A stretch of 64,000 nucleotides of DNA from Arachis hypogaea. Taxonomy: Eukaryota > Streptophyta > Magnoliopsida > Fabales > Fabaceae. The notes under the pieces are model-generated. The model was not told the origin of the DNA and did not search any database. It saw only the letters and a list, made by a program, of their open reading frames with translations. Each line of letters begins with the position of its first letter. Within the stretch, counting starts at the first letter, position 1. The stretch is from NCBI RefSeq assembly GCF_003086295.3, contig NC_092040.1, positions 64,025,559 to 64,089,558 of the forward strand. Direction: 5' to 3'. Shown here one piece after another: positions 13,998 through 61,507 of this stretch. Position numbers and translations under genes: made by a program.

Positions 13998-14104
13998 GGA
14001 GTTGAACTCCGAGTTATGACGTGTTTTGGGCGTTCAACTCCGGATCATGACGTTTTTCTGGCGTTTAACTCCAGACAGCAGCATGTACTTGGCGTTCAAC
14101 GCCA
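13998..14104 (-). repeat. 31-bp-phased palindrome array in the U3 of B's LTR
   Basis: Four units start at 13998, 14029, 14060 and 14091: GGAGTTGAACTCC, GGCGTTCAACTCC, GGCGTTTAACTCC and GGCGTTCAACGCC. Spacing is exactly 31 bp each time. The array lies about 120-230 bp upstream of the TATA box. Confidence 0.9.
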
Positions 14105-24734: not shown

Positions 24735-24810
24735 AGCGTTCAACGCCCGAAGGAGGAAAAAGATGGGTGTTCAACGCCCATAAGGGAAGTAGCCCTGGCA
24801 TTAAACGCCA
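24735..24810 (+). repeat. Internal 31-bp-phased palindrome array of element H
   Basis: Three units start at 24735 (AGCGTTCAACGCC), 24766 (GGTGTTCAACGCC) and 24797 (GGCATTAAACGCC), exactly 31 bp apart. They sit in the same place as the eight-unit arrays in C and D. Confidence 0.88.
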
Positions 24811-24898
24811 ATAGGGGACCAAGTTTTCTTTGCTTGGGGACAAGAAAACTTTTTAAGTTTAGTATTGCAGAGTGAGCTCTAGGTGTATACTATCATCA

Positions 24899-42657: not shown

Positions 42658-43806
42658 TTAGTGGCGTCTTCTTCTTGAAGGACCAACAATGTCCTTAAGC
42701 TCTTCTATGTCCCTTCCTTGCCTTTGTTGCTCCTCCCTCATTGCTTTTTGGTCTTCTCTTATTTCTTGGAGAATGATGGAGTGCTCATGATGTTCCACCC
42801 TTAATTGTTCCACATTGTGGCTCAAATCTTCTAAGGAGGTGTTGAGTTGCTCCCAATAGTTGTTGGGAGGAAAGTGCATCCCTCGAGGCATCTCAGGAAT
42901 TTGTTGATGATGAGCTTCCTCATGCACTTCTTGAGAACCGTGCATGGTTTCTCTTGCTTGCTCCATCCTCTTCTTGGTGATGGGCTTATCCTCTTCAATG
43001 GAGGTATCTCCTTCTATGATAACTCCAGCTGAGTAACATAGATGGCAAATAAGGTGAGGAAAAGCTAGCCTTGCCATGGTGGAGGACTTATCGGCTATTT
43101 TGTAGAGTTCATTGGAGATGACCTCATGAACTTCTACTTCCTCTCCAATCATGATGTTATGAATCATGATGGCCCGATCCACAGTAACTTCAGATCGGTT
43201 GCTAGTAGGAATGATAGAGCGTTGAATAAACTCCAACCATCCTCTAGCCACAGGCTTGAGATCCAGTCTTCTTAGTTGAACTGGCTTGCCTTTGGAATCT
43301 ATTCTCCACTGAGCTCCTTCCACACATATGTCCATAAGGACTTGGTCCAACCTTTGGTTAAAGTTGACCCTTCTAGTGTAGGGGCGTTCATCTCCTTGCA
43401 TCATGGGCAAGTGAAACGCCAACCTCACATTTTCCGGACTAAAATCTAAGTATTTCCCCCGAACCATTGTGAGATAGTTCCTTGGATTCGGGTTCCTACT
43501 TTGATCATGGTTCCTAGTGATCCATGCATTGGCATAGAACTCTTGAACCATCAATATTCTAACTTGTTGCATGGGGTTGGTTAGGACTTCCCAACCTCTT
43601 TTTTGGATTTCATGTCGGATTTCCGGATACTCATTCTTTTTGAGCTTGAAAGGGACCTCGGGGATCACCTCCTTCTTTGCCATAACATCATAGAAGTTGT
43701 CTTGATGGCTCTTGGAGATGAATCTTTCCATCTCCCATGACTCGGAGGTGGAAGCTTTTGTCTTCCCTTTCCCTTTTCTAGAGGATACTCCGGCCTTAGG
43801 TGCCAT
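42658..43806 (-). CDS. Element D second ORF: plant-transposon-type domain protein, 382 aa
   Basis: Starts MAPKAGVSSRKGKGKTKAST with a basic, NLS-like N-terminus. The core reads ...NEYPEIRHEIQKRGWEVLTN..., MVQEFYANAWITR, MVRGKYLDFSPENVRLAFHL, SIIPTSNRSEVTVDRAIMI. I recognise it as the 'putative plant transposon protein' domain (Pfam PF20167-like, from memory) common in legume Athila-like elements. The C-terminal 90 residues are coiled coil (EQLNTSLEDLSHNVEQLRVE..., EELKDIV) ending RRRRH. The ORF is fully open in the position where other elements have env, but I see no signal peptide or membrane anchor, so env is unlikely. It has its own TATA-like box (43997-44004) and an upstream stem-loop. 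A role as accessory nucleic-acid-binding protein is possible but unproven. Confidence 0.82.
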   Translation of the reverse strand: MAPKAGVSSRKGKGKTKASTSESWEMERFISKSHQDNFYDVMAKKEVIPEVPFKLKKNEYPEIRHEIQKRGWEVLTNPMQQVRILMVQEFYANAWITRNHDQSRNPNPRNYLTMVRGKYLDFSPENVRLAFHLPMMQGDERPYTRRVNFNQRLDQVLMDICVEGAQWRIDSKGKPVQLRRLDLKPVARGWLEFIQRSIIPTSNRSEVTVDRAIMIHNIMIGEEVEVHEVISNELYKIADKSSTMARLAFPHLICHLCYSAGVIIEGDTSIEEDKPITKKRMEQARETMHGSQEVHEEAHHQQIPEMPRGMHFPPNNYWEQLNTSLEDLSHNVEQLRVEHHEHSIILQEIREDQKAMREEQQRQGRDIEELKDIVGPSRRRRH

Positions 43807-43845
43807 TGATGGTAATGGAAAAACAAAAAGCTTATGCTTTTACCA

Positions 43846-43880
43846 CACCAAACTTAAAATCTTGCTCGCTCTCGAGCAAG
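43846..43880 (-). promoter_or_regulatory. Stem-loop and PPT-like motif upstream of D's second ORF
   Basis: CACCAAACTTA (43846-43856) and CTTGCTCGCTCTCGAGCAAG (43861-43880), an 8-bp perfect stem with a CTCT loop, 40-75 nt before the ATG. It is the same pair of motifs as next to the 3' LTR, with a compensatory T-A to C-G change in the stem. Confidence 0.8.
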
Positions 43881-43996: not shown

Positions 43997-44004
43997 TATT
44001 TATA
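43997..44004 (-). promoter_or_regulatory. TATA-like box upstream of D's second ORF
   Basis: TATAAATA on the minus strand about 190 bp before the ATG, in a purine-rich, otherwise G-heavy stretch. It suggests an internal promoter. Confidence 0.55.
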
Positions 44005-44356: not shown

Positions 44357-44599
44357 GGCATTTAAACGCCCATTGGTGCACGTTCTGGGCGTTCAACGCC
44401 CATGTAAAGCATGTTTCTGGTGTTGAACGCCAGTTTCATGCTTGTTGCTGGCGTTCAGCGCCAGCTTTTCTTCTCTGGGCACATTCCTGGCGTTCAGCGC
44501 CAGAATGTTGCTTGTTTCTGGCGTTCAGCGCCAGAATGGTGCTCTGTTCTGGCGTTGAACGCCAGCCAGATGCATCTTACTGGCGTTGAACGCCAGCCT
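44357..44599 (-). repeat. Internal palindrome array of element D, eight units, 31-bp phase
   Basis: Units (GGCGTTNAACGCC, GGCGTTCAGCGCC and variants) start at 44357, 44388, 44419, 44450, 44489, 44520, 44551 and 44582. Spacings are 31, 31, 31, 39, 31, 31 and 31 bp. Confidence 0.93.
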
Positions 44600-44812: not shown

Positions 44813-45132
44813 TCAGGTCAATGTTAGTGTAGTCCCAACACCAAACTTAGAGTTTGGATATGGGATCTTAACACCAAACTTAGAGTTTGGTTGTGGCCTC
44901 ACAACACCAAACTTAGAGTTTGACTGTGTGGGCTCTTCTTGACTCTGAACTGAGAGAAGCTCTTCATGCTTACTCTCTTTTGTCACAGAGGGATGGCCAT
45001 GTGCCTTAAACACAAGGTAGTCCCCATTCAATTCAAGGACTAATTCACCTCTGTTGACATCTATCATAGCTCCTGCTGTGGCTAGGAAAGGTCTTCCAAG
45101 GATGATGCAATCATCCTCTTCCTTCCTAGTGT
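44813..45132 (-). pseudogene. Element D protease, C-terminal part, with tandem PPT-like coding
   Basis: Continues D's gag-protease frame after C and one TSD copy are skipped: the first base of an Asp codon lies before C and the other two after it. Residues include [20 protein letters not shown], the flap and C-terminal strand of an Athila protease. The last 40 codons contain three NSKFGV repeats, because the DNA carries three copies of CACCAAACTTAGAGTTTG (near 44840, 44872 and 44904). The frame then stops. No RT follows. Confidence 0.8.
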
Positions 45133-45137: not shown

Positions 45138-46662
45138 TGGTGCACGAAATTGCAATCACACTTTTGCAACTCCGCACAACTAACCAGCAAGTGTACTGGG
45201 TCGTCCAAGTAATACCTTGCGTGAGCAAGGGTCGATCCCACAGAGATTGTCGGCTTGAAGCAAGCTATGGTTATCTTGTAAATCTTAGTCAGGATATCAG
45301 AAATTATCAGGATTGATTGTGAAAAGCAAAAGAACATGAAATGATTACTTGTTTTGCAGTAATGGAGAATAGGTTGAGGTTTGGAGATGCTCCATCTTCT
45401 GAATCTCTGCTTTCCTACTGTCTTCTTCTTCAAGCACGCAAGTCTCCTTCCATGGCAAGCTGTATGCAGGGTTTCACCGTTGTCAATGGCTACCTCCCAT
45501 CCTCTCAGTGAAAGCGATTGCATATGCTCTGTCACAGCATAGCGGAATTCATCTGTCGGTTCTCAATCAGGCCGGAATAGAATCCAGTGATTCTTTTGCG
45601 TCTGTCACTAACGCCCCGCCTTCAGGAGTTTGAAGCACGTCACAGTCATTCAGTCATTGAATCCTACTCAGAATACCACAGACAAGGTTTAGACCTTCCG
45701 GATTCTCTTGAATGCCGCCATCAGTCTAGCTTATACCACGAAGATTCCGATTAAAGAACCCAAGAGATAACTACTTAATCTAAGGTAGAACGGAGGTGGT
45801 TGTCAAGCACACGTTCATAGTTGAGAATGATGATGATTGTCACGGATCATCACATTCATCCGGATTAAGAACAAGTATTATCTTAGAATGGAAGCAAGCA
45901 TGATTGAATGAGAAACAGTAGTAATTGCATTAATCCATCAAGACACAGCAGAGCTCCTCACCCCCAACCATGGGGTTTAGAGACTCATGCCGTGGAAGAA
46001 AACGTGTAAAAATGTCATGAGGTCATCCAAAGGTTCTGATACAATGTCAAAAGATCCTATTAATAGTAAACTAGTAGCCTAGGGTGTACAGAAATGAGTA
46101 AATGACGTAAAAATCCACTTCTGGGTCCACTTGGTGTGTGCTTGGGCTGAGCAATGAAGCTTTTATGTGTAGAGACGTTTTCTGGAGTTAAACGCCAGTT
46201 CTCATGCCAGTTTGGGCGTTTAACTCCAAATTTTATGCCAGTTCCGGCGTTTAACGCTGGAATTTCTGAGGCTGTTTTGCCACGCCGGTTTGGACCATCA
46301 AATCTTGGGCAAAGTATGGACTATCATATATTGCTGGAAAGCCCAGGATGTCTACTTTCCAATGCCGTTGAGAGCGCGCCAATTGGGCTTCTGTAGCTCC
46401 AGAAAATCCACTTCGAGTGCAGGGAGGTCAGAATCCAACAGCATCTGCAGTCCTTTTTGGTCTCGGAATCAGATTTTTGCTCAGGACCCTCAATTTCAGC
46501 CAGAAAATACCTGAAATCATAGAAAAACACACAAACTCATAGTAAAGTCCAGAAAAGTGAATTTTAGCTAAAAACTAATAAAAATATACTAAAAACTAAC
46601 TAAATTATACTAAAAACACACTAAAAACAATGCCAAAAAGCATACAAATTATCCGCTCATCA
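45138..46662 (-). repeat. 3' LTR of element C
   Basis: 1525 bp. It differs from 54902-56426 at positions near 46290, 46352, 46409 and 46518. It has single copies of the 49-bp segment duplicated in B/D, and a palindrome array of three units at 46184, 46215 and 46246, matching 55948-56022. Confidence 0.96.
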
Positions 46663-47709
46663 CAACACCAAACTTAAATTGTTGCTTGTCCCCAAGCAAC
46701 TGAAAATCAAAATAGGATAAAAAGAAGAGAATATACTATAGACTCCAAAATATCAAGGAAACATAGCTCCAATTAGATGAGCGGGACTAGTAGCTTTTTG
46801 CCTCCGAACAGTTTTGGCACCTCACTCTATCCCTTGAAGTTCAGAATGATTGGCATCTATAAGAACTCAGAACTCAGATAGTGTTATTGATTCTCTTAGT
46901 TAAGCATAATGATTCTTGAACATAGCTAGTGTATGAGTCTTGGCTGTGGCCTAAAGCACTCTGTCTTCCAGTATTACCACCGGATACATACATGCCACAG
47001 ACACATAATTGGGTGAACCTTCTCAGATTGTGACTCAGCTTTGCTAAAGTCCCCAATTAGAGGTGTCCAAGGTTCTTAAGCACACTCTTGTTGCCTTGGA
47101 TCACAACTTTATTTCTTTTCTTTTTCTTTTTCTTTTCTTCTTCTCTTTTCTTTTTTTTCGAATTTTTTTTTTGTATCCACTGCTTTTTCTTGCTTCAAGA
47201 ATCAGTCTAATGATTTTAGATCCTCAATAACAGTTCTCTTTTTCCTCATTCTTTCAAGAGCCAACAATTTTAACATTCTCAAAACAACAAATTCAAGAGA
47301 CATATGCACTGTTCAAGCATTCATTCAGAAAGCAAAAAGTATTGTCACCACATCAAACTAATTTAACTAGTTTCAATGATAAATTTTGAAATCCTGTACT
47401 TCTTGTTCTTTTGTGATTAAAGCATTTTTTTCACTTAAGAGAGGTGATGGATTCATAGGACATTCATATCTTTAAGGCATAAAATTTCAATTTTATTAAT
47501 TATGAACTAAGAATAGGACTCAAAGATATATATAAGATGAGACTAAAAGAAAAAAAAATAAAAATAGAAAACAAAACAAACAAAAAAAAACGCAAAAACA
47601 TAGGCTCCTAATGATAGAGGTTTTCACAGAGTTAGGACTCAACAACCTTGATTTTGAGAAGTGGATGCTCCCTCAGCTTGAGAGGAGAACTTTTGGCGTT
47701 TCTTGGAGT
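46663..47709 (-). other. Element C 3' region (non-coding)
   Basis: CACCAAACTTA (46666-46676) and the stem-loop TTGCTTGTCCCCAAGCAA (46682-46699) flank the LTR. The rest resembles 41567-42657 in D. A 60-codon minus ORF near 46874-47056 is not credible. Confidence 0.82.
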
Positions 47710-48564
47710 TCACGCCCCTTGTCCTTCCATTGACTTCTTGGTGATTGGATGTTCAATAGGTATGAACTCATCTGCTCCCATCTTCACCCCAGCCTCTTTA
47801 CAGAGCAAGGAGATTAGGCTTGGATAAGCCAATTTGGTTACAGTGGAATTCTTATTTGCAATTGTGTAGATCTCACAAGCAATCACATGATGAACCTCCA
47901 CTTCTTTTCCAAGCATAATGCAATGAATCATCACTGCCCTCTTGATGGTGACCTCAGAACGGTTGCTAGTGGGCAATATGGAACGCCCAATAAAGTCTAG
48001 CCACCCTCTTGCAATTGGCTTGAGGTCTCCCCTCTTGAGTTGGTTTGGGACACCCTTTGAATTGGTTATCCACTTAGTCCCAGGGAGGCATATGTCCTTT
48101 AGAACTTGATCCAACCCTTTATCTACTCTCACCATCCTCCTATTGAAGGAATCAGGATCATCTTGCAGTTGAGGTAGTTTGAAGATTTCTCTTATTTTGT
48201 CCAGATGGAAGTACATAACTTTCCCTCTGACCATGGTTCTGTAGGTATGGTAAGCAGTTCCAGTCATTCTCTGCTTATCTGTTAGCCATAGATTAGAGTA
48301 GAATTCCTGAACCATGTTCCTTCCAACCTTTATTTCAGGATTGGTCAGAACTTCCCATCCTCTGTTTCGAATTTGCTCTTGGATCTCCGGATATTCATCT
48401 TCTTTCAGATCAAATTTAACTTTCGGGATCACTGACCTCAGACCCATTATTTTGTGATAATGGTCTTCATGTTCTTTGGTTAAGAACTTCTCTTGATTCC
48501 AAAGATTCTTTGGATTAGTCTCTTTCTTTCCTCTTGAGTTGGTTTGTTTTCCCTTAGGAGCCAT
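47710..48564 (-). CDS. Element C second ORF: plant-transposon-type domain protein, 284 aa
   Basis: I choose the ATG at 48564 (MAPKGKQTNSRGKK), which aligns with D's start; an ATG 15 codons upstream is also in frame. The core matches D: EDEYPEIQEQIRNRGWEVLT, MVQEFYSNLWL, MVRGKVMYFHLDKIREIF, SILPTSNRSEVTIKRAVMIH, PITKKSMEG. It stops at 47710, about 100 residues earlier than D's. Just past the stop another frame reads a basic, Gln/Ser-rich tail (KKRQKF...) up to about 47630, so a one-base change near the end may have truncated it. D's C-terminal coiled coil is not found. A TATA-like box is at 48717-48724. The function is unknown. Confidence 0.8.
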   Translation of the reverse strand: MAPKGKQTNSRGKKETNPKNLWNQEKFLTKEHEDHYHKIMGLRSVIPKVKFDLKEDEYPEIQEQIRNRGWEVLTNPEIKVGRNMVQEFYSNLWLTDKQRMTGTAYHTYRTMVRGKVMYFHLDKIREIFKLPQLQDDPDSFNRRMVRVDKGLDQVLKDICLPGTKWITNSKGVPNQLKRGDLKPIARGWLDFIGRSILPTSNRSEVTIKRAVMIHCIMLGKEVEVHHVIACEIYTIANKNSTVTKLAYPSLISLLCKEAGVKMGADEFIPIEHPITKKSMEGQGA

Positions 48565-48603
48565 GATCTTGATGAATCTTGGCTTAGTGATCACGGAAAA
48601 GCA

Positions 48604-48638
48604 CACCAAACTTAGAGGTATTGCTTGTCCTCAAGCAA
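48604..48638 (-). promoter_or_regulatory. Stem-loop and PPT-like motif upstream of C's second ORF
   Basis: CACCAAACTTA (48604-48614) and TTGCTTGTCCTCAAGCAA (48621-48638, 7-bp stem), 40-75 nt before the ATG at 48564. The spacing and order are as in D. Confidence 0.8.
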
Positions 48639-48716
48639 AACGAGAAGAAAGGAGAGAAGAGAGAGAGAGGAAGAGGAAATTCGAATGGTGTGGTGGAAAG
48701 AGGAAGCCAAACACGA

Positions 48717-48724
48717 ATTTATAA
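48717..48724 (-). promoter_or_regulatory. TATA-like box upstream of C's second ORF
   Basis: TATAAATT on the minus strand, about 155 bp before the ATG. It occupies a similar place to D's TATAAATA. Confidence 0.5.
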
Positions 48725-48987
48725 GGTGAGGGAGAGAGTATTTTCGAAAAAAAAGAGAGATTTGAAAGGAGATTTGAGAAGATATAAAAAAAATTGAGAA
48801 AAGGGTGAGTTTTTGAAGAAGATTTGGGATTAATTTGAAATAGATTTGAAGAATGGTTTTGATTTGTGAAGATTTGAAAGTGAATGATGAAAGGTTGAAG
48901 TGCATTTATGTAGAAGAGTATGGGTGAAAAGAGGAAAGTTTGAAAAAATTTGAGTTGAAAACAAAAATGTGGTCCCCCCACCTTTCT

Positions 48988-49220
48988 GGTGTTAAACGCC
49001 CAGAATGGCACCCATTCTGGCGTTTAACGCCCAATTGCTACCCCTTTTGGGCGTTTAACGCCCAGCCAGGTGCCCTGGCTGGCGTTAAACGCCAGAAAGC
49101 CTTTATCACTGGGCATTTTTCAAAACGCCCAGGATGCTGCACACCTGGCGTTAAACGCCCAGAATGGTGCCCATTCTGGCGTTTAACGCCCAAAATGCCC
49201 CTTACTGGCGTTTTTTCGCC
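48988..49220 (-). repeat. Internal palindrome array of element C, eight units, 31-bp phase
   Basis: Units start at 48988, 49019, 49050, 49081, 49112, 49147, 49178 and 49207. The first five are 31 bp apart. The fifth unit has four extra bases, giving 35, then 31 and 29. Typical unit GGCGTTTAACGCC. Several spacers are inverted repeats themselves, for example AGAATGG...CCATTCT and AGCCAGG...CCTGGCT. Confidence 0.94.
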
Positions 49221-49330
49221 AGTAAGCTCATTTTCTCTGCTTTTTGAGCTGAATCCTTCTGTAACTCTGTGAATTCCTTCATTTTTGATATTTGCCTCTG
49301 TAAGAACTAATTATATAACCTCCTAATGAC

Positions 49331-49355
49331 TGGGTTGCCTCCCAGCAAGCGCTTC
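49331..49355 (-). repeat. Conserved post-coding motif of element C
   Basis: The plus strand reads TGGGTTGCCTCCCAGCAAGC then GCTTC, about 33 bp after the gag-pol stop in element orientation. Homologous to 44741-44765. Confidence 0.85.
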
Positions 49356-49387
49356 TTTACTGTCTTTAGCTGGACTTTCACTGAGAA

Positions 49388-52300
49388 TCACTCAAGCCTC
49401 AGTTTTGAGCATTCCTGCTCAAAGTTTCCTTCAAGATAATGCTTGATTCTCTGTCCATTAACAATGAACTTCTTGTCAGAATCAATATCCTGAAGCTCAA
49501 CATATCCATATGGTGACACTCCTGTAATCACATACGGACCCCTCCAGCGGGATTTGAGTTTTCCTGGAAACAGTCTGAGCCTAGAGTTGAAGAGCAGAAC
49601 TTTTTGTCCTGGCTCAAAGACTCTGGTTGACAACTTCTTGTCATGCCATTTCTTTGCCTTTTCCTTATAAATTTTTGCATTTTCAAAGGCATTGAGTCTG
49701 AACTCCTCTAGCTCATTTAACTGGAGTAATCTTTTTTCACCAGCTAACTGTGCATCCATGTTTAGGAATATGGTTGCCCAGTAGGCTTTATGTTCCAGTT
49801 CCACAGGCAAATGACAGGCCTTCCCATATACCAGTTGGTATGGGGAGGTTCCTATAGGAGTCTTGAATGCTGTTCTGTATGCCCACAGAGCATCATCCAA
49901 GCTCTTTGCCCAATCCTTTCTTCGGACTATCACAGTCCGTTCTAGGATTCTTTTTAGCTCTCTGTTAGAGACCTCAGCTTGCCCATTTGTCTGTGGATGA
50001 TACGGAGTTGCCACTTTGTGGCTAATTCCATACCTAACCATAGCAAGGTGTAGCTGTTTATTGCAGAAATGAGTGCCCCCGTCACTGATTAGCACTCTGG
50101 GCACTCCAAACCTGCTGAAAATGTTTTTCTGGAGGAATTTCAGTACGGTCTTTGTATCATTAGTGGGTGTAGCAATTGCTTCTACCCACTTAGACACATA
50201 GTCCACTGCCACCAGAATGTAAGTGTTTGAGTATGATGGTGGGAATGGCCCCATGAAGTCAATTCCCCATACATCAAATAGTTCTATCTCTAATATCCCT
50301 TGTTGAGGCATGGCATATCCATGAGGCAGGTTACCAGCTCTTTGGCAACTGTCACAGTTACGCACAAACTCTCGGGAATCTTTATAGAGAGTAGGCCAGT
50401 AGAAGCCACATTGGAGGACTTTAGTGGCTGTTCGCTCACTTCCGAAATGTCCTCCATACTGTGATCCATGGCAGTGCCATAGGATCCTTTGTGCTTCTTC
50501 TCTGGGTACACACCTGCGGATCACTCCGTCAGCACATCTCTTGAAGAGATATGGTTCATCCCAGAGGTAGTACTTGGCATCTGAAATTAATTTCTTTCTC
50601 TGCATGTAACTGTACTCTTTGGGTATGAACCTCACAGCTTTAAAATTTGCAATATCTGCAAACCATGGAGCTTCCTGAATGGCAAATAGTTGCTCATCTG
50701 GAAACGTCTCAGAAATCTCAGTAGAAGGGAGGGACGTCCCTACTACTGGTTCTATTCGGGACAGATGATCAGCTACTTGGTTCTCTGTCCCTTTTCTGTC
50801 TCTTATTTCTATATCAAACTCTTGTAGAAGCAACACCCATCTTATGAGCATGGGTTTTGAATCCTGCTTTGTGAGTAGATATTTAAGAGCAGCATGGTTA
50901 GTGTACACAACCACTTTGGATCCCACTAGATAGGATCTAAACTTGTCAATGGCATAGACCACTGCAAGCAACTCTTTTTCTGTGGTTGTGTAGTTCTTAT
51001 GTGCGTCATTTAGAACACGGCTGGCATAGTAAATGACGTGCAGAAGCTTGTTATGCCTCTGTCCCAACACTGCACCAATGGCATGATCACTGGCATCACA
51101 CATTAGTTCAAATGGCAATGTCCAATCTGGTGCAGAGATGACTGGTGCTGTGACCAGCTTAGCTTTCAGGGTCTCAAATGCCTGCAGACACTGTGTGTCA
51201 AACACAAATGGTGTGTCAGCAGCTAACAGGTTACTCAGAGGTTTTGCAATTTTTGAAAAATCCTTTATAAACCTTCTGTAGAACCCTGCATGCCCCAGAA
51301 AGCTTCTGATTGCCTTAACATTGGCAGGTGGTGGTAATTTTTCAATTACCTCTACCTTTGCCTTATCCACCTCTATTCCCTTGTTTGAAATTTTGTGCCC
51401 AAGGACAATTCCTTCAGTCACCATAAAGTGACATTTCTCCCAGTTTAAAACCAGGTTAGTCTCTTGGCATCTTTTCAAGACAAGTGCTAGGTGATTAAGA
51501 CAGGAGTTAAATGAGTCTCTATATACTGAAAAGTCATCCATGAAGACTTCCAGAAATTTCTCTACCATATCTGAGAAGATAGAGAGCATGCACCTCTGAA
51601 AGGTTGCAGGTGCATTGCACAGACCAAAAGGCATCCTCCTGTAGGCAAACACGCCAGAAGGGCAAGTGAATGCTGTTTTCTCTTGGTCCTGAGGATCTAC
51701 TGCAATTTGGTTGTAGCCTGAATAGCCATCCAAAAAGCAGTAATAATCATGGCCAGCTAGTCTTTCTAGCATTTGGTCTATGAATGGTAAAGGAAAATGA
51801 TCCTTTCTGGTGGCTGTATTGAGCCTTCTGTAGTCAATACACATGCGCCACCCTGTGACTGTCCTTGTAGGAACCAGTTCATTTTTTTCATTATGAACCA
51901 CTGTCATGCCTCCCTTTTTGGGAACAACTTGGACAGGGCTCACCCAGGGGCTATCAGAAATAGGATAAATAATCCCAACCTCTAGTAATTTAGTGACCTC
52001 TTTCTGCACCACCTCCTTCATGGCAGGATTTAGCCTCCTCTGTGGTTGGACCACTGGTTTGGCATTATCCTCCAACAGGATCTTGTGCATGCATCTAGCT
52101 GGGCTAATACCCTTAAGATCACTTATGGACCACCCAAGAGCTATCTTGTGTGTCCTTAGCACTTGAATCAGTGCTTCCTCTTCCTGTGAATTTAAAGCAG
52201 AGCTTATAATCACTGGAAAAGTGTCACCCTCTCCCAGAAATGCATATTTCAGGGATGGTGGTAGTGGTTTGAGTTCAGGCTTGGGAGGCTTATCCTCCTC

Positions 52301-54340
52301 CTGAGGAATTTTCGAAAATTCCTTTGCCTCCTCTAGTTCTTCTTGATCAGGCTGAGCATCTTTGAAGATGTTCTCAAGCTCTGATTCTAGGCTCTCAGCC
52401 ATACTGATCTCTTCTACCAGAGAGTCAATAATGTCAGCGCCCATGCAGTCATTTGGTGTGTCTGGATGCTGCATGGCTTTTACAGCATTCAACTTGAACT
52501 CATCCTCATTGACCCTCAAGGTTACTTCCCCTTTTTGTACATAAATGAGAGTTCGTCCAGTTGCTAGGAAGGGTCTTCCTAGAATGAGAGTTGCACTCTT
52601 GTGCTCCTCCATTTCCAGCACCACAAAGTCAGTTGGAAAGGCAAATGGCCCAACCTTGACAATCATGTCCTCAATTATGCCTGATGGGTATTTAATGGAG
52701 CCATCAACAAGTTGGAGGCATATCCGGGTTGGTTTGACTTCTCCAGTCAACCCAAGCTTTCTGATAGTGGATGCAGGTATTAGATTGATGCTTGCTCCAA
52801 GATCACATAGAGCTGTCTTAGTGCAAGCACCTTCTAATGTGCATGGTATCATAAAGCTTCCTGGATCTTGAAGCTTTTCTGGTAAGCTTTTTAATATGAC
52901 TGCACTGCATTCCTCAGTGAGAAACACTTTTTCAGTTTCTCTCCAATCCTTCTTATGACTTAAGATTTCTTTCATGAACTTAGCATAAGAAGGTATTTGC
53001 TCAAGTGCCTCTGCAAACGGAATCTTTATTTCAAGCGTCCTTAGATAGTCTGCAAAGCGGGCAAATTGCTTATCCTGTTCCGCTTGGCGGAGTTTTTGAG
53101 GATAAGGCATCTTGGCTTTATATTCTTCAACCTTAGATGCTGCAGGTTTATTCCTTACAGAAGTGGTTGAAGAAGCCTTGTTAGAGGGATTACTGTCAGC
53201 ACTCTCAGGTGTCTGATCTTCCCTTGGCGTTTGAACGCCAGGAATGGGTGAAGCTTGGGCGTTAAACGCCAACTTTTCCCCCTTTTCTGGCGTTTGAACG
53301 CCAATAACATTCCTCTCTGGGCTCTTACTGTCCTCAGAGGGATTTTGCACAGTGGTTTGGATGTCCTCTGTCAATTGTTCCTTGTTTGGCTTTTTACTCT
53401 TTTGAGCAGTGTTATTCAGGGTCTTCCCACTCCTCAATTGAACTGCTTGACATTCCTCTGTTATCTGTTTAGATAATTGCTGTTTTGCTTGATTCAACTG
53501 CAGTTCTATGCTCTTGTTAGCAACTTTAGTTTCATAGAGCATCTCTTTAAAGTCTGCTAACTGTTCTGTCATCAGGAGCAATTGTTGATTAAGCTCAATT
53601 ATCTGTTCTTGAGGACTAGGGTCAGTGACTACTGTCATGACTTCCTCTTTTGGAGAGAACTCATTGCTAGAATACAAATATTGGTTTCTAGCAACAGTGT
53701 CTATAAGCTCTTGAGCTTCTTCAATTGTCTTCCTCATGTGTATAGATCCACCAGCTGAGTGGTCTAAAGACATCTGAGCTTTTTCTGTAAGCCCATAGTA
53801 GAAAATGTCTAACTGTACCCACTCTGAGAACATTTCAGAGGGACATTTTCTGAGCATACCTCTATACCTCTCCCAGGCATTATAAAGGGATTCATCATCC
53901 TCTTGTTTAAAGCCTTGGATGTCCAGCCTTAACTGTGTCATCCTTTTAGGAGGGTAAAAATAATTCAGGAATTTGTCTGACAACTGTTTCCATGTCTTTA
54001 TGCTTGCTGTAGGTTGGTTATTCAACCACCTTTTTGCCTGATCTTTTACAGCAAATGGAAACAGTAATAGTCTGTAGACATCCTGATCTACCTCTTTATC
54101 ATGTACTGTGTCAGCAATTTGTAAAAACTGTGCCAGAAACTCAGTAGGTTCTTCCTGTGGAAGACCGGAATACTGGCAATTTTGCTGCACTATGATAATG
54201 AGTTGAGGATTTAGTTCAAAGCTGCTTGCTTTGATGGGAGGTGTACAGATGCTACTCCCATATGCAGCTGTAATGGGGTTAGCATATGACCCCAGAGTCC
54301 TCTTGGACTGATTGATCCCACTTAAGTCCATAATGGACAA
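49388..54340 (-). CDS. gag-pol: Element C Gag-Pol polyprotein, 1650 aa, intact
   Basis: A single open frame from ATG 54340 ([12 protein letters not shown]). Gag core at about residues 60-230 ([56 protein letters not shown]); no CCHC knuckle is evident. Protease with [13 protein letters not shown], Asp 513. RT at about 760-960 ([24 protein letters not shown] with Asp 935-936). RNase H follows ([33 protein letters not shown]). Integrase has an HHCC finger ([11 protein letters not shown]...CDSCQ) and catalytic Asp 1361, Asp 1420 and Glu 1456, spaced D58D35E, then a C-terminal domain ([18 protein letters not shown]). Motifs such as FMDDFSVY and the tRNA-Asp PBS place it in the Athila lineage. No lesion is seen. 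Three palindrome units (53226-53301) are translated within the gag-protease linker. Confidence 0.96.
53226..53301 (-). repeat. Palindrome units inside the gag coding sequence of element C
   Basis: GGCGTTTGAACGCC at 53226, GGCGTTAAACGCC at 53258 and GGCGTTTGAACGCC at 53289, spaced 32 and 31 bp. They are in frame and read as GVQTP/AFNAQ-like peptides in a disordered linker. Confidence 0.9.
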
Positions 54341-54901: not shown

Positions 54902-56426
54902 TGGTGCACGAAATTGCAATCACACTTTTGCAACTCCGCACAACTAACCAGCAAGTGTACTGGGTCGTCCAAGTAATACCTTGCGTGAGCAAGGGTCGAT
55001 CCCACAGAGATTGTCGGCTTGAAGCAAGCTATGGTTATCTTGTAAATCTTAGTCAGGATATCAGAAATTATCAGGATTGATTGTGAAAAGCAAAAGAACA
55101 TGAAATGATTACTTGTTTTGCAGTAATGGAGAATAGGTTGAGGTTTGGAGATGCTCCATCTTCTGAATCTCTGCTTTCCTACTGTCTTCTTCTTCAAGCA
55201 CGCAAGTCTCCTTCCATGGCAAGCTGTATGCAGGGTTTCACCGTTGTCAATGGCTACCTCCCATCCTCTCAGTGAAAGCGATTGCATATGCTCTGTCACA
55301 GCATAGCGGAATTCATCTGTCGGTTCTCAATCAGGCCGGAATAGAATCCAGTGATTCTTTTGCGTCTGTCACTAACGCCCCGCCTTCAGGAGTTTGAAGC
55401 ACGTCACAGTCATTCAGTCATTGAATCCTACTCAGAATACCACAGACAAGGTTTAGACCTTCCGGATTCTCTTGAATGCCGCCATCAGTCTAGCTTATAC
55501 CACGAAGATTCCGATTAAAGAACCCAAGAGATAACTACTTAATCTAAGGTAGAACGGAGGTGGTTGTCAAGCACACGTTCATAGTTGAGAATGATGATGA
55601 TTGTCACGGATCATCACATTCATCCGGATTAAGAACAAGTATTATCTTAGAATGGAAGCAAGCATGATTGAATGAGAAACAGTAGTAATTGCATTAATCC
55701 ATCAAGACACAGCAGAGCTCCTCACCCCCAACCATGGGGTTTAGAGACTCATGCCGTGGAAGAAAACGTGTAAAAATGTCATGAGGTCATCCAAAGGTTC
55801 TGATACAATGTCAAAAGATCCTATTAATAGTAAACTAGTAGCCTAGGGTGTACAGAAATGAGTAAATGACGTAAAAATCCACTTCTGGGTCCACTTGGTG
55901 TGTGCTTGGGCTGAGCAATGAAGCTTTTATGTGTAGAGACGTTTTCTGGAGTTAAACGCCAGTTCTCATGCCAGTTTGGGCGTTTAACTCCAAATTTTAT
56001 GCCAGTTCCGGCGTTTAACGCTGGAATTTCTGAGGCTGTTTTGCCACGCCGGTTTGGGCCATCAAATCTTGGGCAAAGTATGGACTATCATATATTGCTG
56101 GAAAGCCCAGGATGTCGACTTTCCAATGCCGTTGAGAGCGCGCCAATTGGGCTTCTGTAGCTCCAGAAAATCTACTTCGAGTGCAGGGAGGTCAGAATCC
56201 AACAGCATCTGCAGTCCTTTTTGGTCTCGGAATCAGATTTTTGCTCAGGACCCTCAATTTCAGCCAGAAAATACCTGAAATCACAGAAAAACACACAAAC
56301 TCATAGTAAAGTCCAGAAAAGTGAATTTTAGCTAAAAACTAATAAAAATATACTAAAAACTAACTAAATTATACTAAAAACACACTAAAAACAATGCCAA
56401 AAAGCATACAAATTATCCGCTCATCA
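54902..56426 (-). repeat. 5' LTR of element C
   Basis: 1525 bp. On the minus strand it starts TGATGAGCGGATAATTTGTA and ends TTTCGTGCACCA. It contains the palindrome array 55948-56022, a weak TATA-like TATTAATAG near 55820, and the R/U5 block 54932-55013. Confidence 0.96.
55948..56022 (-). repeat. 31-bp-phased palindrome array in the U3 of C's 5' LTR
   Basis: Three units start at 55948 (GGAGTTAAACGCC), 55979 (GGCGTTTAACTCC) and 56010 (GGCGTTTAACGCT), exactly 31 bp apart. Confidence 0.9.
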
Positions 56427-56431
56427 CTAAG
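56427..56431. repeat. Right target-site duplication of element C (CTAAG)
   Basis: Matches 45133-45137. Confidence 0.96.
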
Positions 56432-61401: not shown

Positions 61402-61507
61402 AGAGTTGAACTCCGAGTTATAACGTGTTTTGGGCGTTCAACTCCGGATCATGACGTTTTTCTGGCGTTTAACTCCAGACAGCAGCATGTACTTGGCGTT
61501 CAACGCC
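61402..61507 (-). repeat. 31-bp-phased palindrome array in the U3 of D's 5' LTR
   Basis: Four units start at 61402, 61433, 61464 and 61495, exactly 31 bp apart (AGAGTTGAACTCC, GGCGTTCAACTCC, GGCGTTTAACTCC, GGCGTTCAACGCC). Confidence 0.92.

Follow-up and report, generated by a model that had tools for sequence, protein, structure and literature searches.

The stretch of peanut (Arachis hypogaea) DNA analysed here, referred to below as the window, is 64,000 bp long and contains a Ty3/gypsy retrotransposon on the minus strand, designated element C. Its 5' LTR (54902 to 56427, minus strand) and 3' LTR (45138 to 46663, minus strand) are 99.7% identical. Between them lie the gag-pol open reading frame (49388 to 54340, minus strand), in which gag, protease, RT, RNase H and integrase follow each other in Ty3/gypsy order, that is, with RT and RNase H ahead of integrase, and a second frame, ORF2 (47710 to 48609, minus strand), of 299 amino acids, matching PF20167, 'putative plant transposon protein' (E 8.2e-41). 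These two frames flank an array of short palindromes at 48988 to 49220, as a first-pass annotation of the sequence had stated; since element C is on the minus strand, this 'linker array' lies 3' of pol and 5' of ORF2. Element C appears to be inserted within a relative, element B, which is interrupted and carries its own linker array and ORF2 (42658 to 43806, minus strand; 382 amino acids, PF20167, 51% identity with the ORF2 of C).

For ORF2, 84 homologues were found, the named ones coming from Arachis (A. hypogaea and A. stenosperma) and Stylosanthes (Stylosanthes scabra); a PDB search with its predicted structure (pLDDT 66) gave no match. Copies were also scored genome-wide. Among the best 131 of 72,491 candidates, a biased sample, most of the listed copies kept the frame open, with 306 and 392 residues as common lengths, and two had stops. 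The open frames among these best-scoring copies suggest that the elements may have been active recently. Directly 5' of ORF2, seven aligned linkers have a small inverted repeat of the TTGCTTGAGGACAAGCAA type, after which comes AAGTTTGGTGT or a word close to it (in the window, at 48601-48640 and 43844-43880, minus strand). This inverted repeat shows paired differences between types and is degenerate in locus L022; a similar stretch is present in a plus-strand element at 24828-24870. The word AAGTTTGGTGT also occurs in a 33-bp tandem repeat near the pol end of element B (44836-44922).

The first-pass annotation had listed eight 13-bp palindromes in the linker array of element C, starting at 48988, 49019, 49050, 49081, 49112, 49147, 49178 and 49207. 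This description suits six of the eight units: five (49019, 49050, 49081, 49147 and 49178) are perfect palindromes with 6/6 arms, GGCGTTNAACGCC, and unit 48988, GGTGTTAAACGCC, has a single mismatch in the palindrome. The two others are variants. Unit 49112 is split, its half-sites being separated by 6 bp (GGCATT-tttcaa-AACGCC), and unit 49207 (GGCGTT-tt-TTCGCC) is degenerate, the outer stem being kept and the AAC half gone. The intervals were as reported (31, 31, 31, 31, 35, 31 and 29 bp), five of the seven being 31 bp. The extra 4 to 5 bases are recurrent: in C-type linkers the distance spanning the split unit is 66 or 67 bp (window, L009, L014, L028 and L064-L066). At some sites the palindrome is widened outward to arms of 8 to 10 bp, and some of the spacers are themselves palindromic.

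With at most one mismatch allowed, 32 sites were found in the window. Pairs of GTTNAAC at exactly 31 bp occurred 18 times, compared to 0 in each of 30 Markov-1 simulations. Over the 2.557-Gb genome, we counted 229,295 occurrences of the exact-31 pattern TTNAACGCC-N18-GGCGTTNA (control 0), 136,001 forward occurrences of CTGGCGTTNAACGCC (reversed-pattern control 0), 31,470 occurrences of the looser AACGCC-N19..47-GGCGTT, which covers 29 spacings (control 1,269), and 2,509 full site pairs at 32 to 60 bp; the patterns are unequal in strictness, and counts at different spacings come from different patterns. The simulations and the exact-31 count rule out a chance origin of the array. In viral contigs, the motif pair had no exact match, and the RT and ORF2 pieces had no confirmed relative, so that all copies observed belong to this genome.

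Among neighbouring sites in 25 10-kb stretches taken at fixed coordinates, together with the window, 75 of 94 intervals (up to 100 bp) were exactly 31 bp. The same was true of 52 of the 66 consecutive intervals of at most 80 bp in 20 fixed-coordinate 10-kb stretches (sites with up to 2 mismatches), eight of which had clustered sites, two isolated sites only and ten none. Other copies of the family might have shown no excess of 31-bp spacing; the 75 of 94 intervals and the genome-wide count indicate that they do. A wider sample gave 164 intervals of 31 bp and 70 of 32 bp out of 300, counts that are biased against 31 because loci in it (five of L034-L043 and all of L044-L063) were picked for a pair at 32 to 60 bp. 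Among loci picked in this way, spacing alternates between 31 and 32 bp in L039, L041 and L050 and is mainly 32 bp in L042. Long arrays of 9 to 15 sites with mostly G/C centres and a spacing of 32 or alternating 31/32 bp were seen in L039 (41-493), L041 (32-390) and L042 (24-291).

Mean spacing in the 16 arrays of at least six sites ranged from 30.4 to 31.9 bp. The helical repeat of DNA is 10.5 bp per turn, and this range is close to three turns. The units had been expected to face the same side of the DNA, which is approximately the case; a strict alignment does not hold, since the mean spacing varies from 30.4 to 31.9 bp.

If the array were a simple tandem satellite, one would expect the whole unit to be conserved. 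Between elements, however, identity was 0.892 for sites and 0.306 for spacers, with a chance level of 0.258 (17 units; sites were picked by motif, and the limits of 2, 3 or 4 mismatches that define the site sets inflate site identity). Together with the kept LTR spacing described below, this rules out a recent tandem amplification of one unit, an outcome that the first-pass annotation had envisaged; the palindrome is conserved over the spacer. The consensus is GG(C/T)(G/A)TTNAA(C/T)(G/A)CC, with a free centre base. In a profile of 190 sites flanked on both sides by neighbours at 30 to 33 bp, in which up to 4 mismatches were accepted, T6 and A8 were the least variable positions (0.5% and 1.6% deviating), followed by G1, G2, C12 and C13 (2.6 to 5.3%). 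Most deviations fell at the two CpGs, as expected from methylation decay. Of 393 arm deviations, 60 were matched in the neighbour and 50 within the site, figures confounded by relatedness and CpG decay.

Arrays of the same kind are found in U3. Three sites at 31-bp spacing lie in the 3' LTR (46184 to 46258) and the 5' LTR (55948 to 56022) of element C, and four in each of two related LTRs (13998 to 14103, and 61402 to 61507, where one site has 3 mismatches). In the 5' LTR of C, a TATA-like box, TATTAATAGG (55823 to 55829, minus strand), is located 118 bp past the last U3 site; the TATA box of the LTR with the array at 13998 is 117 bp past its last site. Overall, sites and a TATA-like box were present in 14 of 17 U3 matches. 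The distance from the end of the last site (up to 3 mismatches) to the box was 117 to 119 bp in 11 of these 14 LTRs, and 128, 129 and 130 bp in the remaining ones, L031 and two plus-strand LTRs; that this sets the groups roughly one helical turn apart is a post hoc remark. The box patterns TATTAATA, which covers four C-like copies with an altered TATA, and TATTTAAA, which covers L031, were added after inspection of the alignment. Under a stricter site limit (9 LTRs), the plus-strand distances became 218 and 181 bp, and that of one LTR 148 bp. The plus-strand LTR arrays are irregular (intervals 24, 14, 31, 20 and 29, 31, 19, 51), the array is lost in one related LTR, and two further U3 matches are without one. 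A block like CTCAGCCCAAGCACACACCAAGTGGGCCC is recognisable between array and TATA in 14 of the 17 aligned U3 rows, plus-strand ones included.

The spacing could be set against the local indel rate by comparing two LTR types, with 5 copies each. This comparison covers 10 of the 17 U3 rows, the twin LTR of C, L028, the two plus-strand LTRs, one truncated LTR and two without sites having been dropped. Identity between the flanks of the two types is 0.853, and gap events number 0.239 per substitution (25 non-independent comparisons). Orthologous U3 spacers are 0.449 identical, for which the local rate predicts 2.37 indels per spacer. Nevertheless, the spacing was 31 bp, or 62 bp over a degenerate unit, in 10 of the 10 copies compared; the pattern used for the comparison required pair spacing, and a separate spacing list was free of that requirement. 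The test against neutral indel rates called for in the first-pass annotation thus came out in favour of a kept spacing in these 10 copies.

Linker arrays also recur. That of element B (44357 to 44594) has eight sites, the first with a 2-bp centre, at intervals of 31, 31, 31, 39, 31, 31 and 31 bp, and three sites at 31-bp spacing (24735 to 24809) lie in a plus-strand element for which gag was matched and ORF2 was not. Six arrays of at least 7 sites were found in the sampled stretches, and five of them adjoin the pol end, ORF2 or both: those of L009 (5677) and L028 lie between the two; that of L014 follows the pol end, in a stretch that stops short of ORF2; and those of L017 and L022 are ahead of ORF2, no match to the pol end being found there. 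The sixth (L009 513-865) has on one side a stretch resembling the pol-linker junction of C and on the other one resembling the ORF2 leader of B. Linker arrays are therefore kept at the same place in the two diverged ORF2 types. Between the array of C and its ORF2 is a TATAAAT box (48717 to 48723, minus strand; one of 5 minus-strand TATAAAT[AT] matches in the window), which is a candidate for an internal promoter and precedes a pyrimidine-rich leader; the candidate TATA box of element B, TATAAATA, has the corresponding location (43998 to 44004, minus strand). All three B-type linkers have a TATA box after the array. So do five of the seven C-type linkers, among which the three of L064-L066 are close relatives of C and not independent; the linkers of L009, L028 and the plus-strand element lack one.

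We propose that the array is a cis-regulatory cluster, made of putative sites for a dimeric DNA-binding protein, which would act on the LTR promoter and on an internal ORF2 promoter; on the sequence evidence, we lean modestly towards this reading. Each 13-bp palindrome would take one protein dimer, and the spacing of about three turns would set neighbouring dimers on nearly the same helical face. The U3 cluster, upstream of the LTR TATA box, would activate genomic RNA, while the cluster between pol and ORF2 would serve the second promoter and yield a separate ORF2 mRNA. Phased sites for a dimer had already been suggested in the first-pass annotation; the symmetric, near-invariant base profile fits a dimer on both half-sites, although phasing is only approximate. 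We favour activation at the DNA level since base identity, spacing and the distance to the TATA-like box each vary within narrow limits. Several observations count against it: half-site gaps of 2 bp and 6 bp occur at some sites, the distance from linker array to TATA box is variable (about 248 to 353 bp), some linkers have no TATA box, and the arrays of some LTRs are irregular or absent. No plant factor is known to us that recognises exactly this site.

The location of further sites also counts against the cis-regulatory reading. In the gag part of the C gag-pol frame, three sites are present at 53226 to 53302, away from known promoters, with a spacing of 32 and 31 bp: two outer 14-nt variants, 63 nt (21 codons) apart from start to start, and a middle 13-nt site, reading GVQTP, AFNAQ and GVQTP. 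Gag sites were also found in L011 (742-850), L014 (4714-4822) and L028 (1732-1870), and in degenerate form in a plus-strand gag. No sites were found beside four other gag copies (L020, L022 and two in the window); a fifth, next to a run of N, was uninformative.

A similar objection comes from the centre bases, which a dimer would not require to be related. In 37 non-redundant arrays, adjacent centres were complementary in 99 of 139 pairs (permutation mean 66.2, sd 5.1, maximum 83 in 2000 permutations), and in 145 of 215 distinct pairs (expected 0.267), two statistics that rest partly on loci picked for 32- to 60-bp pairs; distinct pairs from the exact-31 genome listing gave 24 of 32 (expected 0.44). 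Moreover, the centres of an orthologous U3 site pair differ between the LTR types, one type having A..T and the other G..C, in 10 of the 10 copies compared. Neighbouring sites thus tend to be reverse complements of each other, which can mean alternating DNA orientation, RNA pairing or template-switch correction.

RNA pairing had been dismissed in the first-pass annotation, on the ground that arms of six bases cannot make a good hairpin. This does not hold, as neighbouring sites can pair over 13 bp, some spacers lengthen the stems, and the centres are complementary; a role in RNA or in template switching is therefore possible. The sites would then form 13-bp stems in the element RNA, longer with palindromic spacers and with the spacer as loop, and these stems would help to package, dimerise, translate or stabilise the genomic RNA, which in this element class includes U3, gag and linker alike. 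The change from A..T to G..C between LTR types fits such stems, as do palindromic spacers that differ in letters and keep pairing (AGAATGG/CCATTCT, AGCCAGG/CCTGGCT and AGTGAGG/CCTCACT). The array of C folds at -144.2 kcal/mol, compared to a shuffle mean of -88.4 (z -11.6), and that of B with z -10.4, but a low fold energy would be expected of any palindrome array. Stems require pairing and not fixed letters, yet T6 and A8 are nearly invariant, and a constant loop length of 18 to 19 is left without a reason. Mean spacer palindromy, at 3.31, is not above the half-swap control (3.33), 12 of 104 spacers being strongly palindromic. A known Rfam RNA was rejected for 47600-49500, where the three matches were all far below the gathering score. 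We consider stems as the sole explanation unlikely; they account better than a dimer for complementary centres and gag copies, and DNA and RNA roles may both hold.

Complementarity is also inflated by residual descent at 62 to 63 bp. Adjacent spacers are 49% identical and same-phase spacers 55%, and the alternating 31/32 arrays resemble a 63-bp unit. Tandem duplication of a 62- to 63-bp dyad unit could produce such arrays without any function, the inverted repeats being kept perfect by template switching at hairpins as the element is reverse-transcribed or replicated, and template-switch correction would yield complementary neighbours. Part of the centre complementarity is accounted for by such descent from a 63-bp dyad unit. 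As a full account this neutral scenario seems quite improbable to us: it leaves unexplained why site letters stay fixed beside spacers at 0.31 identity between elements, why the spacing is constant in the face of the local indel rate, why the TATA-like box falls within a narrow range of distances and why arrays are kept at the same place in two ORF2 types.

The spread of sites across LTR, gag and linker could also reflect binding by a factor that acts in silencing or on chromatin, or by the ORF2 protein in an anti-silencing or transposition role. Anti-silencing proteins that bind tandem repeats exist in other plant transposons. The CpG observed-to-expected ratio is raised in the array (0.78, compared to 0.47 in the window), and of the 131 best-scoring ORF2 copies two are listed with stops. 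However, the ORF2 model is of moderate confidence and has no fold match, and the plus-strand element retains an array in spite of having no ORF2 match. We give this possibility little credence.

The cis-regulatory reading can be extended to a single operator system, in which three-turn palindromes of alternating orientation in U3, gag and linker would drive not only the LTR promoter but also a hidden internal one for ORF2. We put this forward tentatively, as a possibility that falls short of an even chance. If true, more than 200,000 site pairs per genome would be enough to titrate or rewire one host regulator. The linkers suggest a concrete way in which the ORF behind pol might be expressed in plant env-class retroelements, and the abundance and regularity of the motif mean that a binding protein could be found quickly by gel shift or DAP-seq.

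Among the best matches listed from the open-licence literature, searched with motif strings included and with the original FIDEL and Calypso papers outside it, no description of this array was found. The BII boxes of Tnt1, a Ty1/copia element, are tandem activator boxes whose unit of about 31 bp is similar in length to that of the peanut array, and they are confined to U3. In the Retand family, tandem repeats between pol and the 3' LTR are family-specific in the portion of PMC11963269 consulted; in the peanut arrays, by contrast, a short palindrome is kept while the remainder of the unit drifts, and is common to linker and U3. The SIRC cassettes of Arabidopsis, found with a CRISPR finder, are short direct repeats with diverse spacers, some located in ATHILA and some palindromic; unlike here, the sections of PMC10342631 used describe no fixed spacing or promoter position.

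The order of gag-pol, noncoding linker and second ORF resembles that of Athila and Calypso, env-class Ty3/gypsy elements. Splice acceptors are predicted for the Athila env (PMC2829016, in part), and the excerpts of PMC1142308 and PMC2829016 at hand describe no palindrome array or internal promoter for this lineage, whereas an array and a putative internal promoter are seen here. Seven of the eight FIDEL primer sequences printed in PMC3496627 were present within 2 mismatches in the window and the sampled loci (six of eight in the window, none for FIDEL496F), and we therefore call the elements, and the putative operator system, FIDEL-like, by primer sites. In sampled relatives, the FIDEL412F primer shares bases with a U3 site. 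Of the FIDEL transcripts tested, most increase under stress (PMC3496627), a point in favour of the cis-regulatory reading. The text available from PMC3496627 mentions no array, whereas arrays are present in the FIDEL-like elements analysed here.

The closest parallel in layout among these systems is found in the palindromic repeated motifs (RM) of Sireviruses, for which we rely on part of PMC2829016. They number 8 to 32, and most stand in the upper LTR half, ahead of a TATA box; in env-bearing members they recur upstream of the env-like gene. The peanut palindromes likewise cluster upstream of the LTR TATA box (14 of 17 U3 rows), with further copies between pol and ORF2, the putative env counterpart. 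Splicing and stop-codon suppression have been proposed for the ORF behind pol in plant env-class elements, and an internal promoter has been suggested for Sireviruses and not conclusively found (PMC2829016). Sirevirus RMs have a CGG-CCG core, with one exception (Tnd-1), whereas the core here is GG(C)(G)TTNAA(C)(G)CC, with no CGG-CCG. Their clusters form CpG islands (PMC2829016); for the array of C, the observation is the CpG ratio of 0.78 given above. The fixed 31- to 32-bp spacing, complementary centres and gag copies seen here are not described for Sirevirus RMs in that part of PMC2829016. Sireviruses are Ty1/copia elements, in contrast to the Ty3/gypsy order of the peanut elements; palindrome clusters at the same two places in a second superfamily suggest convergence or a shared host factor.
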